From positions 6,265 to 63,875 of the IMG/VR virus record IMGVR_UViG_3300029448_000020: a stretch of DNA of 57,611 nt; one strand, 5' to 3'. Source of the stretch: a virus. The translations under genes were made by a program, and so were the position numbers. This document shows positions 44,962 to 56,737 of the stretch, piece by piece. Every line of letters begins with the position of its first letter. The first letter of the stretch is position 1. The notes under the pieces were generated by a model that was given only the letters and a program-made list of their open reading frames with translations, did not search any database and had not been told where the DNA came from.

Positions 44962-45219
44962 CTATTCTACTATAACTATATCCCTCATGCGTATAACGCG
45001 ATACATCTCATCTTTATATGAAATATCATGACCTGCCATAGTATCGTAATATATTACATCACCTCTCGTTACTATTTCAACCATATTACCAACAGATACT
45101 ATCTTTGCTTTTTTATACCTGTTAGTTTCGTCTGTTTCATCTGTTAAGATTAAACCTCCAACCTTTTTTGGTCCTTCTTTTACTTTATCTACTATAACGT
45201 AGTCATTAATTGCTTGCAT
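44962..45219 (-). CDS. groES: Co-chaperonin GroES
   Basis: An 85-residue co-chaperonin, slightly shorter than the usual 95-97. The mobile loop KKVGGLILTDE (cf. GGIVL in bacterial GroES), the roof region, and the C-terminal pattern DEMYRVIRMRDIVIVE are present. It caps the GroEL cavity during folding. The start overlaps the groEL stop by 14 bases, so the pair is co-translated in the order EL then ES, reversed from the usual bacterial groES-groEL order. Confidence 0.85.
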   Translation of the reverse strand: MQAINDYVIVDKVKEGPKKVGGLILTDETDETNRYKKAKIVSVGNMVEIVTRGDVIYYDTMAGHDISYKDEMYRVIRMRDIVIVE

Positions 45220-46771
45220 TTTCTATTCTTATATTTGAAATTACACAATCTGCTGACATCACAGTTAAAGCTACACTTACAGCATTTTTAAGCGCGGACT
45301 TAGTTACTAATACTGGATCAATAATACCTTCATCAATCATTTTAACAAATGCACCATTTATTACATTACAACCATAACCTTCTTTCATACCAGTGTTAAG
45401 TTTTAATCCAGCATTTTCCATTATAGTTGCAAACGGTGAAGATAATGATTTTAATAATACGTTTCCAGCTTTATTGGTTTTTATTTTTTGACTAGCGTTA
45501 AGAAGAGCAATACCACCACCTGGGACGATACCTTCTTTCAGGGCCGCTTTCGTAGCGTATATTGCATCTTCTATTCTATCTTTCTTTTCTTTTAGTTCAA
45601 CCTTAGAATTAGCACCTACTTTAATCATTCCAACACTACCTGATAATGTAGCTAATCTTTGTTCTAGTTTCTTTTTAATAAAACCATTCTTCTCTTCAGC
45701 TAACTTAGTATTTAACTCATCTATTCTACCTTCTATCTCGTCTGTCATTCCTTCTAGCGTTAAAATAGTATCTTTATCATTTGTAATAGAAAACTCAGCT
45801 TCACCTAAGTGTTCTGGCTTCATAAGATCTAAATCATCACCAAGTTCTTCATTTAATACTGTAGCACCGGTTAATATAGCTAAATCCTCTATAGCATCTT
45901 TCTTTGTTGGTCCAAAACCTGGAGAATCTATTATATTAATCTTTATATTACCTTTAACTTTATTCATTAATAATGCAGATTTAACTGATTGAGCAACTGG
46001 TGCTACTATTAGTAATGATCTATTGTTTTTAATAACATACTCTAATATTGACTGTATTTTACGAATATTCGGTATTTCAGATGAACATGTTAAAACAAGA
46101 GGGTTATCTAGTTCACATGTATGTTTTTCTGTATTTGTAACAAAGTGAGGTGATGTTAGTCCACAGTCTATTTGAACACCATCAACTATCTCAACATAAG
46201 TATCTTCAGTTGGTGACTCTTCCATAAGTACAACTCCATTTTTACCAACCTTGTCATAAGCTTCAGCAATTATCTTGCCTAGCTCTTTATCGTTGTTACA
46301 TGATATAGAACTAACAGAAGATAGCATATCACCTTCTACTTCAACTGATATATTGTTTAAGTAGCTAATGACACTATCTAGTGTTTCATTTACTCCATCT
46401 TTAATTTCTCTTATTGTAAGACCATCTGCGACTGCAGCGTCTATTTGTTTGATTAGTGCTTCTGCTAGCACTGTAGCTGTTGTAGTTCCATCACCAGCTT
46501 CTTTAACTGTGTTTCTGGCAGCTTCTTTTATGAGTGTTGCACCCATATTCTCAACCGGATCATACAAGACTACGCTCTCTGCAACGGTTACTCCATCTTT
46601 TGTAATGACCGGTTTGCCTCTCCCATCTTCGTAGATAACACATTTTCCTGATGCACCTAACGTAGATTTAACGGCTTGGGCTAATTTATTAACTCCAGTG
46701 ATAACCTTATCTTTAGCTTCACCACCAAAGTTTAGGTTTTTCACCAATTCACTTGGTAAGTTATATTCCAT
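45206..46771 (-). CDS. groEL: Chaperonin GroEL
   Basis: A 521-residue chaperonin subunit. GDGTTTAT (93-100) carries the nucleotide-binding Asp, and [11 protein letters not shown] (400-410) holds the ATP-hydrolysis Asp (D402, equivalent to E. coli D398). The PGGG turn lies at 417-420, and the apical segment [15 protein letters not shown] and PGFGPTK are conserved. The usual TLGPKGR is TLGASGK, and the C-terminal GGM tail is absent. The protein is divergent but all catalytic positions remain, so it is likely an active foldase for phage proteins. The organisation with groES indicates a complete phage chaperonin system. Confidence 0.9.
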
Positions 46772-52312: not shown

Positions 52313-52401
52313 TATCTCGCTACATAATAGTGTGACAATTGCTAGTTACTATATCTTTAGTTATAACGCTAATGTCACAGTATAAATAATTAATTTGCGA
52401 G
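52292..52401 (+). promoter_or_regulatory. Nested, mutually exclusive hairpins after gene 52094-52312
   Basis: CGAGATAT (52292-52299) pairs with ATATCTCG (52312-52319) around the stop codon of the gene. A second fold pairs CTCGC (52316-52320) with GCGAG (52397-52401) and encloses TGTGACA (52331-52337)/TGTCACA (52373-52379). Both use CTCG, so they cannot form together. Reminiscent of an attenuator or an RNA-processing site; no T-run is present. Confidence 0.4.
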
Positions 52402-52470
52402 TAGAGAAGTGACGAGCAATACGTGTACAAGTAATTTATTCATTAAACAATTAATATACTTTTACAAACT

Positions 52471-52494
52471 AAATACGAAACAGTAAAGATAATA
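52471..52494 (+). promoter_or_regulatory. Phage promoter motif, copy 3
   Basis: AAATACGA-AACAGTAA-AGATAATA, with the extended ACAAACT upstream. It is 19 bases before the 25-residue ORF at 52514. After the motif comes AATAATGTAA, similar to the sequence that follows copy 1. Confidence 0.8.
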
Positions 52495-53218: not shown

Positions 53219-53225
53219 GTTATAC

Positions 53226-53306
53226 AAAACCACTAATGAAGTGCTGAGTAACTAGTGGTAACTTGAGACGTAGTTGACTACATTTAGCGTCTTATAAATA
53301 ATGCGA
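53226..53306 (+). ncRNA. Hairpins in the spacer after gene 53027-53218
   Basis: ACCACTA and TAGTGGT, separated by about 17 bases, form a 7-bp stem. A second stem pairs AGACG with CGTCT and encloses GTAG-TTGA-CTAC. They lie in a 169-base spacer together with the tRNA-like element at 53320. Transcript function unknown; mRNA processing or termination are possible. Confidence 0.35.
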
Positions 53307-53319
53307 ATGAGTAATACAA

Positions 53320-53386
53320 GGTAGAAAGGCGGCTGTAGTCCTCTCCGAGTGATGACAATCAAGTGGTTCGAGTCCACAACTACCAC
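53320..53386 (+). ncRNA. tRNA-like element (degenerate)
   Basis: GGTAG at the 5' side pairs with CTACC at the 3' side, and a T-arm-like GTGG-TTCGAGT-CCAC stands just before the 3' strand. The D-arm and anticodon arm are not recognisable: the middle folds into TGAT-GACA-ATCA and CTC-TCC-GAG. At about 66 bases it is too short for a tRNA. It may be a decayed tRNA or a tRNA mimic. The following ORF starts right behind it. Confidence 0.35.
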
Positions 53387-54014: not shown

Positions 54015-54291
54015 ATTAATAATAGCTAGTGTAGCTCTTGGTGGACTAGTAAATGCACAGTGTAATTACAAGTGTGGTTACAATCAAGACGAGAATGGTA
54101 ATACTGTTCACCTTGAGCAATGTAATGAGTATAAAAAAATTAAAAAAGACAAATCTCTTGATTTAATTTATAATAGAAAAATACCTTTATACACAAAACC
54201 TAATGGACCTATAACTCCGTTAGTTAAATCAAAGTGGATGGAAAAACTAGTAATGACTTTGGAATATGGTGACACCAACATGGTCGAGTAG
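54004..54291 (+). CDS. Secreted protein 2
   Basis: A 95-residue protein with a signal peptide (MRNKLIIASVALGGLVNAQ) and mature CNYKCGYNQDENGNTVHLEQ followed by a Cys. The rest is basic (KKIKKDKSLDLIYNRK). Paired with secreted protein 1. Its last codons and stop lie inside the tRNA-Arg gene (10 shared bases), an unusual arrangement. Confidence 0.6.
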   Translation: MRNKLIIASVALGGLVNAQCNYKCGYNQDENGNTVHLEQCNEYKKIKKDKSLDLIYNRKIPLYTKPNGPITPLVKSKWMEKLVMTLEYGDTNMVE

Positions 54292-54392: not shown

Positions 54393-54605
54393 ATGAAATG
54401 TAAATGTAAAAAAAATATAATACCAAAAGGACGTTTGCGACTCGGTTTTAGAGTATGCGTTGAGTGTTCAACTGTCGAAAGATACGGTTGTGCTCCAGTC
54501 ATTAACCATAAGACAGGCAACACTATTCAAATTATGTCGCAAGAAGACGCTAAACGCATAGCTAAACTGACTCGTAGACGTGGATATGGTACAATGCTTA
54601 AATAA
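54393..54605 (+). CDS. Zinc-ribbon-like small protein
   Basis: A 70-residue basic protein: MKCKCKKNIIPKGRLRLGFR with Cys in CKC and CVEC (residues 3, 5, 22, 25), suggesting a zinc site, and a basic C-terminal helix (KRIAKLTRRRGYG). Similar small proteins occur in marine phages. Possibly a nucleic-acid binder; function unknown. Confidence 0.6.
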   Translation: MKCKCKKNIIPKGRLRLGFRVCVECSTVERYGCAPVINHKTGNTIQIMSQEDAKRIAKLTRRRGYGTMLK

Positions 54606-54966: not shown

Positions 54967-55551
54967 ATGACAAAAGTAAAAACAATGGAAGAAGCATACC
55001 GAGTATTTGAACTACTTGGTATTAAAGATGTCACGAAAAAGTGGCAAAAGAAACAAGGTACTGAAGTATTTGAGTTGCCATTTAAAACTATGTGCTACAA
55101 CGGTCAAGCAGAAACTAATAGATTCTCGATCTACAAAAGTGGTTATATACGTAAAATGGTAGTTCATCCAACTAGTAATGCAAGTTATAGTTGCTATCAA
55201 CTAAATAAAACTCGCAAATCTGATGAGTATTTCAAAGATTATGACTACGATGGCAAGTGGACAGGTAAATATCGTAAAAGCAACAGAACAGAGCGAATTA
55301 TGATAGATACTCACAGAGATCGAGTAGTATATTTATGTAATTACATACTAAAAAATTACTATAATAGTAATAAAATGAACTTAGTTGGCGAATATACTAT
55401 GAAAAGAGTAGCAGAAGTACATGGCGAATGGTGGAGAAACGAAAGAAAACACGACGAGTGGCCATTTGAAGATGTAAAAAGAAACGATGTAGACTACGAA
55501 CCTAAAGAAGTTCAAATAATAATTGACGGACACCGTTATAAAGTAATATAA
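54967..55551 (+). CDS. Hypothetical protein, early/middle region
   Basis: A 194-residue, mixed-charge protein (EEAYRVFELLGIKDVTKKWQ, FDYDGKW-like aromatic segments, a C-terminal QIIIDGHRYKVI). It is the largest gene of the rightward region. No domain recognised. The next gene starts 1 base after its stop. Confidence 0.6.
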   Translation: MTKVKTMEEAYRVFELLGIKDVTKKWQKKQGTEVFELPFKTMCYNGQAETNRFSIYKSGYIRKMVVHPTSNASYSCYQLNKTRKSDEYFKDYDYDGKWTGKYRKSNRTERIMIDTHRDRVVYLCNYILKNYYNSNKMNLVGEYTMKRVAEVHGEWWRNERKHDEWPFEDVKRNDVDYEPKEVQIIIDGHRYKVI

Positions 55552-55552
55552 A

Positions 55553-55804
55553 ATGATAGAAGAATTAAAAGATTTAGAACAAGAAGCGATGGATGAGTTA
55601 ACGCCTGAAGACTATATGGCAATCACCTCTAATGTAATGGACGACTATGATCGACCAATATACCAAAGTGGCTACATAGATGGCTTACAAACAGCTATAA
55701 GAATGCTTAGTAGTGATGATACTACCATGAGTTATACAATGGAGATTGATGAGATGTTTGGTGAGGACTATGCTAAAGTAGATGAAGACGAAGACACAAA
55801 ATAA
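55553..55804 (+). CDS. Acidic protein
   Basis: An 83-residue, strongly acidic protein (MIEELKDLEQEAMDELTPED; EIDEMFGEDYAKVDEDEDTK). The net charge could mimic DNA, as in phage inhibitors of host DNA-binding enzymes; this is speculation. Its stop is at the start of promoter copy 7. Confidence 0.55.
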   Translation: MIEELKDLEQEAMDELTPEDYMAITSNVMDDYDRPIYQSGYIDGLQTAIRMLSSDDTTMSYTMEIDEMFGEDYAKVDEDEDTK

Positions 55805-55826
55805 ATACGATTGCTTCAAGATAATA
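55803..55826 (+). promoter_or_regulatory. Phage promoter motif, copy 7
   Basis: AAATACGA-TTGCTTCA-AGATAATA. Overlaps the stop codon of the preceding gene and lies 21 bases before the ATG at 55848. The large RNA downstream has no motif of its own, so it is probably made from this promoter. Confidence 0.8.
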
Positions 55827-55847: not shown

Positions 55848-56048
55848 ATGCCAAATATGAGTTACTGTAGGTTTGAAAACACTACAATAGATATAGATGA
55901 TTGCTTAGCTGCGATACAAGATTCTCACGAAGAATGTGCTGATTTAAGTAGACGTGAGGTGCAAGCTTTACAAAGATTACTAGAACAAGCAGAAGAAATA
56001 GTAGATTTATCGCATGATATTGAACAAATAATAGAAAAATATAACTAA
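55848..56048 (+). CDS. Small MPNMSYCRFEN-type phage protein
   Basis: A 66-residue protein starting MPNMSYCRFENTTIDIDDCL, a start found in many T4-like, cyanophage and marine-phage small proteins. A coiled-coil-like helix (REVQALQRLLEQAEEIVDLS) follows. Function unknown. It precedes the large structured RNA by about 15 bases. Confidence 0.7.
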   Translation: MPNMSYCRFENTTIDIDDCLAAIQDSHEECADLSRREVQALQRLLEQAEEIVDLSHDIEQIIEKYN

Positions 56049-56062
56049 AAATAACTCAAAAA

Positions 56063-56465
56063 TGCGGGGCGAGGGACGTGTAGAACTTAAAGATGGGGTT
56101 AATCCGTTTGGACACCTCGGTTCATCTAACCTTCTTGCCGCAGTGACCTGACTATATCTATGTATAAAGATGAGGTTGGTCACACGTGAACTAGGTGGTT
56201 CAATGTAGGATAAAGCATTCAAGGGAGTGGGAGCGAAATCTCCAGTTAACTATAAACTACTCGGTCTTGATGGTACCACACCTACAGTTCACAACAGCTT
56301 GAAATGGACAAAACAGGGTGATACGCACCGCGTAATTTGCCTGACGAGGTGGGAGGTTCGATTCCTCCCCAAGCTGCAAGATATGTGCCTAAATGTGAAA
56401 TTCATAGCAAGGTCGCAAGTACCTGCAGAAGGCTTGTATGGATAGAGTTAAAGCCTCTATACATA
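56063..56465 (+). ncRNA. Large structured non-coding RNA (about 400 nt)
   Basis: A gene-free region with higher GC than its surroundings and many complementary segments: TGCGG (56063-56067)/CCGCA (56138-56142); GTGACC (56143-56148)/GGTCAC (56178-56183); GTGAAC (56186-56191)/GTTCAC (56287-56292); TGTAGG (56204-56209)/CCTACA (56281-56286); TCAAG/CTTGA; GAGT/ACTC; GGAG-CGAAAT-CTCC. A tRNA-like acceptor plus T-arm is at 56295-56376. The 3' end is a hairpin TATG-G-ATAGAG...CTCTAT-A-CATA (56437-56465). One ORF crosses it, but it has no leader and does not read like a protein. Similar in style to ornate phage RNAs such as GOLLD or ROOL; class not identified. Confidence 0.75.
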
Positions 56466-56474
56466 TCACAAACT

Positions 56475-56498
56475 AAATACGAATAAAGTAAGATAATA
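56475..56498 (+). promoter_or_regulatory. Phage promoter motif, copy 8
   Basis: AAATACGA-ATAAAGTA-AGATAATA, with the extended ACAAACT upstream. It starts 10 bases after the 3' hairpin of the structured RNA and lies 5 bases before the ATG at 56504. Confidence 0.8.
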
Positions 56499-56503
56499 AA
56501 TAC

Positions 56504-56737
56504 ATGAAAACAATATACGATAGACTCACACCAGATATTCTGGCGAGTATAAACAATGACGAACAAAGATATCCTTTTACAACTAAAGCTCTTAAAATAA
56601 AGCTTAAGTCTAGTGATGACTGGTCACAGTTATCTGTAGGTGATGTTCAATCAATAATAACACATTCTCATATAAGATTAATTGACGTAGATCAAGCAGA
56701 TTTAATGTGGGGTGATAAATTTTTAATAAGTAAGTAA
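56504..56737 (+). CDS. Small hypothetical protein
   Basis: A 77-residue protein, MKTIYDRLTPDILASINNDE, with helical content in its middle (DDWSQLSVGDVQSIITHS). Its stop overlaps the start of the next micro-ORF (TAATG). Not recognised. Confidence 0.55.
   Translation: MKTIYDRLTPDILASINNDEQRYPFTTKALKIKLKSSDDWSQLSVGDVQSIITHSHIRLIDVDQADLMWGDKFLISK

Follow-up and report, generated by a model that had tools for sequence, protein, structure and literature searches.

Several described RNAs share traits with the locus reported here. GOLLD and ROOL are phage-encoded, large, pseudoknotted and located near tRNA genes (PMC12286853). Type III antitoxins are small H-type pseudoknot RNAs, and a phage-encoded example, pseudo-ToxI, is known (PMC3475682). 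Resemblance to tRNA is found in tmRNA (RF00023), with its acceptor, GG-bearing D-loop without a D stem, T arm and helix replacing the anticodon arm. According to the work of Chen et al. (2014) as cited in PMC7790460, it is also found in YrlA, a non-coding RNA with a tRNA-mimicking domain. In MALAT1-mascRNA and MEN-beta-menRNA, a tRNA-like element lies directly 3' of another RNA, and RNase P has been proposed to set the 3' end of the RNA preceding elements of this type (PMC11693755).

The RNA considered here lies in a window of 57,611 nt (the whole stretch of DNA that was analysed) from a 67,197-bp IMG/VR virus record. The source phage is tailed, as indicated by a flavobacterial-phage terminase (63% identity to Caudoviricetes sp. 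ctfjg026, 44% to Flavobacterium Elemovirus phages), and the hosts of this uncultured phage are probably Flavobacteria-like. It also encodes a GroEL (45206-46771, minus strand; phrog_5725). The RNA locus (56064-56467) is flanked by genes for 66-aa (55848-56048) and 77-aa (56504-56737) proteins and has a GC content of 0.43, compared with about 0.25-0.35 in the flanking DNA. A tRNA-Arg gene lies 1.7 kb upstream, at 54282 (ARAGORN; Rfam RF00005). A preliminary description had placed here a large structured phage RNA that it could match to no class, pointing to a composition unlike the AT-rich neighbours, the lack of a convincing gene and the occurrence of such RNAs near tRNAs; these observations held. 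The two longest chance reading frames (72 aa on the plus strand, 71 aa on the minus strand) are disrupted in relatives by stops and frame changes, which rules out a protein gene.

Gene neighbourhood and strand around the RNA are kept in about 30 contigs, with a 70-aa zinc-ribbon-like and a 194-aa protein upstream and a 138-aa protein downstream. The 70-aa CxC...CxxC protein (54393-54605, plus strand) is 48-97% identical to counterparts in 29 other contigs, ends in the conserved HKTGNxIQIMSSxDAxRIAKLTRRRGYGTML and had no Pfam or PDB sequence match. The 194-aa protein (54967-55551, plus strand) is conserved upstream of the RNA in more than 30 contigs; its AlphaFold model (pLDDT 80) had no significant fold match in the PDB or BFVD. 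The intergenic stretches 53219-53351 and 52313-52480 both contain apparent hairpins. The former has a GC content of 0.40 and includes AAATAATGCG, which resembles part of one of the cassettes described below.

Searches with Rfam 15 (4227 families) gave no above-threshold match at the window locus or at 18 relatives' loci, and across the window found only the tRNA-Arg at 54282. At E<=10, region 55950-56550 yielded only a tmRNA T-arm fragment and a sub-threshold plastid match on the opposite strand. The fragment's score was 9.9 bits, the threshold being 47, and ARAGORN found no tmRNA, which eliminated this class. RNase P RNA and group I intron models were unmatched in the window and in 55950-56550, in agreement with the absence of all three sets of hallmarks remarked on at the outset. 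GOLLD and ROOL were likewise unmatched in the window, in the 18 loci and at E<=10 in the same region.

Folding energy was only moderately unusual against chance and is not decisive. On the plus strand z was -2.70 (0 of 100 shuffles equally stable), or -1.95 when the ends were slightly shifted, and the minus strand gave a less unusual fold (z = -1.85). The RNA structure is instead settled because helices covary in relatives. Together with the Rfam result, the non-coding stretch and the tailed-phage terminase, this supports the initial proposal, and the locus almost certainly encodes a structured, unclassified RNA. Rather than closing as a single 400-nt fold, it consists of five self-closed modules, A to E, in series, joined by short A-rich linkers (Table 1).

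Table 1. Positions of RNA modules, their parts and promoter-like motifs in the window (all on the plus strand).
Feature	Position	Detail
Module A	56064..56141	outer helix GCGG/CCGC; 19 copies in relatives; z = -0.84
A inner helix	56071-56075/56130-56134	GAGGG/CCTTC
A conserved internal-loop letters	56076-56082; 56124-56129	ACGTGTA; ATCTAA
A letters	56135-56137	TTG
A socket s1	56083-56123	
Module B	56143..56183	cassette hairpin GTGACC...GGTCAC; z = -4.08
Module C (conserved core)	56186..56292	covariation; 40 distinct copies; minimal forms in L174, L178, L018; z = -1.13, pseudoknot left out of folding model
C helix P1	56186-56191/56287-56292	GTGAAC/GTTCAC; encloses rest of C
C helix P2	56195-56199/56275-56279	GTGGT/ACCAC
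C socket X	56200-56203	
C helix P3	56204-56209/56281-56286	TGTAGG/CCTACA
C conserved letters	56210-56216	ATAAAGC
C socket Y	56217-56274	
Module D (tRNA-like)	56295..56376	12 relatives; z = -2.74
D acceptor	56295-56301/56370-56376	CAGCTTG/CAAGCTG; 7 bp
D-loop-like GG	56306-56307	
D variable hairpin	about 56308-56340	in place of anticodon arm
D letters	56342-56347	TGACGA, before T arm
D T arm	56351-56369	6-bp T stem, loop TTCGATT
Module E	56380..56467	closing stem GATATGTG/CATATC; z = -2.23
E 3' hairpin	56437-56465	single G-A mismatch
TAAATACGA-N9-GATAATA copies	52046, 52470, 52741, 54361, 54814, 55802, 56474, 57430	ahead of small genes
Promoter-like motif, inferred transcript start	55802..55826	upstream of gene 55848-56048
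Promoter-like motif of next gene	56474..56498	just downstream of RNA

Relatives were found in about 45 IMG/VR phage contigs, reached through a neighbouring protein and by searches with T-arm, C and A patterns. Any letter that a pattern fixed is necessarily invariant in the loci which that pattern retrieved. The C letters also occur in loci from other routes (L002 by protein, L013-L017 by T arm), as do the D letters (L002-L005 by protein, L043 by module A). A strict pattern search found exactly one C in 22 of 29 whole records; some of the remainder hold C outside its gap limits. No C was seen in the examined stretches of L042 and L043, and L019, L177, L181, L190 and L192-L194 were set aside as apparent chance pattern matches. 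The RNA had no convincing DNA match in the sequenced-phage database, and its closest named relatives (Elemovirus, Cellulophaga phi38:1 and ctfjg026) lacked C, A and D in the stretches examined, which covered part of each genome. In cellular genomes the C pattern gave 0 matches and the D pattern at least 117, of which the four inspected, from Flavobacteriales/Bacteroidetes, were ordinary tRNAs. The searches made found no cultured carrier.

At the DNA level, module C is an H-type pseudoknot in which P2 crosses P3, and both crossing helices are kept in relatives. P1 and P3, along with TCAAG/CTTGA, GAGT/ACTC and GGAG/CTCC enclosed by them, had been named in the preliminary description and are all present; it had missed P2, which makes the module a pseudoknot, as well as the complete tRNA-like module and the modular organisation. 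In the fixed register of C type 2, P1 was 97.9% paired with double substitutions at 5/5 pairs. The socket-Y stem, whose offset shifts by a base within this alignment, was 67.6% paired with double changes at 5/5 pairs, and slid registers were 35-47% paired overall. P2 and P3 are invariant within this set. When both C types were aligned, with the P1 and Y stems chosen as best helices and thereby biased upward, P3 showed double changes at two of six pairs, with compensation between types. For P1 and Y, cognate pairing exceeded non-cognate pairing (permutation p about 5e-5). P2 and P3 are complementary in all C copies, this having been a condition of their extraction, and the P2/P3 pseudoknot also appears in loci reached via the T-arm pattern or the protein. 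P2, which never varies, and most P3 pairs are thus predicted from complementarity and conservation, not covariation. The module is present in almost every locus found, can stand alone, in L018, L174 and L178, with a minimum of about 58 nt, and occurs twice in tandem in L184:8389-8800, where one copy holds module A in socket X.

Module D, which incorporates the T-arm-like hairpin recognised earlier, combines a 12-13 bp acceptor/T stack, a TTCRANN T loop, GG at the D-loop position and compensatory changes, and is tRNA-like by these features. Among 12 sequences, the acceptor and T stems were paired in 156 of 156 cells and doubly substituted at 7 of 13 pairs; slid out of register, they were 41-49% paired. 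GG and TTCGANT were invariant in A1. For some loci the T-loop letters had been set by the search pattern; L002-L005, L037 and L043 were obtained without that constraint. The module was rejected as a tRNA: it has no D stem, encoded CCA or anticodon arm, the last replaced by the variable hairpin, and ARAGORN and RF00005 call only the tRNA-Arg at 54282. Variant tRNA-like modules with another acceptor, ACTAG/CTAGT, appear in L028:5070-5220, L034:2909-3110 and L195:6400-6530, and those of L028 and L034 carry an extra domain inserted ahead of the D-loop-like part.

Modules A and B also have counterparts in other phages. The closing stem of socket s1 was paired at 4/4 positions in 15 of 19 cognate module-A copies, compared with 4.7% of non-cognate combinations. 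Stems in module A are of the types GTGAG/CTCAC, GAAGG/CCTTC, GTAAG/CTTAC and GAGGG/CCTTC. The 41-nt cassette of module B is identical in L016 and L017. Module E, which includes the 3' hairpin with a G-A mismatch noted in the preliminary description, is a predicted fold put forward on energy only, and had no close relative among the relatives' loci examined.

The conserved core of the RNA is the pseudoknot, and the remainder is optional and exchangeable between phages. Optional sockets lie in the loops of A, C and D. Socket X contains 4-5 nt, a hairpin or an entire module A, such that A lies either ahead of C or within it, and socket Y ranges from 4 nt (L174/L178) to 95 nt. The cassette GTGAATTGG...AACGAAAC, 33 identical nt, is shared by s1 of A in L020 and Y of C in L022, and a 47-nt cassette is common to the same two sockets of L027 and L030, respectively. 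Hairpins of the CCGAAACTCGG kind occupy X, Y or s1, and cassettes are also inserted inside one another. Where shared cassettes sit in new sockets, the closing stems differ yet remain complementary. With loci lacking an extracted C listed apart, 69 of 70 cassette matches shared the strand of C and lay no more than 900 nt from it. Exchange of cassettes between phages is very probable, and recombination may be what swaps them. A hot spot of mobile palindromic DNA elements that do not themselves function as RNA could also place self-closed cassettes in many positions, even inside one another. This is very improbable, given that nearly all matches adjoin C on one strand, that coding DNA of the loci examined held no dispersed cassettes, and that the core is kept while cassettes change and joining stems are re-matched.

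Two kinds of putative promoter bear on how the RNA is made. In L018, L174 and L178, minimal C follows TTTG-N20-TATCTTTG, a predicted Bacteroidetes-type promoter ending 37 nt before GGATAAAGC; L174 equals L178 here and L018 is related, giving one or two independent cases, and the pattern occurs 62 times per 1.5 million strand-bases searched. In L018 and L174, a peptidase-like gene has C in its 5' leader. The protein downstream of minimal C in L018 seems to be split into two ORFs (L018:5772-6959, minus strand), of which the second weakly matches Peptidase_M42, below threshold. W-type phages have no host-type promoter ahead of the RNA. In the window, TAAATACGA-N9-GATAATA occurs in 8 copies against 0.00 expected, all with a fixed 9-nt spacing, and is a likely phage-specific promoter. 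Given the copies at 55802 and 56474, the transcript from 55802 probably has the RNA as its 3' part.

We are nearly certain of the structural identity, and infer the function. We take this RNA to represent a new class of phage structured RNA. A trans-acting stable RNA with a tRNA-like end, a reading to which we assign a probability of roughly 0.45, is the best fit to an invariant pseudoknot that usually occurs once, lies ahead of differing genes and has a tRNA-like neighbour on its 3' side. A single C in 22 of 29 records fits such an RNA better than a general mRNA element, and clades carry different genes immediately downstream, evidence against cis regulation of a single gene. The mechanism is tentative. 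The RNA would derive from an early or middle transcript of the phage, which in the window probably starts at the 55802 motif; minimal forms would use their own promoter. Host tRNA-processing enzymes could recognise D, with RNase P acting at its 5' side and trimming at the 3' side, freeing a stable RNA that ends immediately beyond C. With its nearly unchanging helix sequences, C would bind one specific partner in trans. The cassettes may bind variable host factors, or may only shield and stabilise the core.

The main rival to this trans-acting reading is a cis role in untranslated regions, where the element would stabilise the end of its own mRNA or, as a leader, control the gene that follows. 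The missing host-type promoter in W-type phages and the 5' leader position in L018/L174 make such a role possible, and C often begins a few bases from the stop codon of the upstream gene, with a promoter-like motif downstream of the RNA in the window. We nonetheless consider it unlikely: upstream and downstream genes are both inconstant, the element is usually single-copy, and its location moves between a 3' end and a 5' leader. A riboswitch or leader regulator was rejected on the inconstant class of downstream gene.

Less likely still is a combinatorial scaffold, in which the fixed pseudoknot and tRNA-like end would carry fast-exchanged nested cassettes, each serving as its own decoy or binding site for a different host factor. 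If the scaffold reading were true, new RNA counter-measures would evolve in phages as cassettes are plugged into sockets and stems re-matched.

By analogy, the pseudoknot or tRNA-like part might imitate a host RNA, for example a type III antitoxin or the substrate of a nuclease that cleaves tRNAs, and titrate the corresponding host factor. Precedents are pseudo-ToxI of phage PhiTE (PMC3475682) and the nuclease-inhibitor role proposed for the YrlA tRNA-like domain (PMC7790460), and the contrast between conserved core and rapidly changing periphery is consistent with an arms race. Such counter-defence is improbable, however, as the nearest window genes had no toxin or defence match by Pfam or PADLOC, and neither tandem ToxI-like repeats nor an Rfam antitoxin match was found. 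A type III antitoxin as such was rejected on one C per record by strict pattern (two in L184) without tandem repeats, and a type III toxin-antitoxin pair on the lack of a Pfam or PADLOC toxin among the neighbours and of a significant PDB fold match for the 194-aa protein. A YrlA-type Y RNA was discarded as well, with no Rfam match and no Ro protein by Pfam among the seven window genes neighbouring the RNA. Least probable is a cage-forming multimeric RNA of the GOLLD/ROOL kind, too diverged for the models, which would fit a large, pseudoknotted phage RNA with a tRNA gene 1.7 kb off and the conserved 3' and variable 5' regions of GOLLD, but not the silence of the models even at E<=10, the reduction of the core to about 58 nt or the unfixed module order.

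Within the models and literature searched, the RNA family and its unusual, nested cassette architecture are new, although the function may still be a known one. The literature searched, with most subscription papers and preprints outside its coverage, held no description of this RNA and no account of helical cassettes, even nested, moving between RNA sockets with re-matched joining stems. The carrier phages have no annotation for this RNA class, which comparison among relatives strongly supports. Its 58-nt minimal core opens structure, partner and function to direct testing, and the modularity of RNA can be studied at this locus as a natural experiment.

These features separate the RNA from each of the described systems that it resembles. 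Unlike GOLLD and ROOL (PMC12286853), it has a small pseudoknot core, exchangeable cassettes and no fixed module order. In contrast to the type III antitoxins (PMC3475682), module C is not a 36-nt tandem repeat, has no recognised toxin partner and possesses a closing helix, P1, and insertion sockets. The halves of module D are contiguous, without the mRNA-like part of tmRNA (RF00023) and without an encoded CCA. Module D differs from YrlA in its 13-bp acceptor/T stack and free variable hairpin, and no Ro/Rsr was recognised among the neighbours examined. MALAT1 and MEN-beta (PMC11693755) are human nuclear RNAs, whereas the phage RNA would undergo its proposed processing at a tRNA-like module directly 3' of a pseudoknot core.
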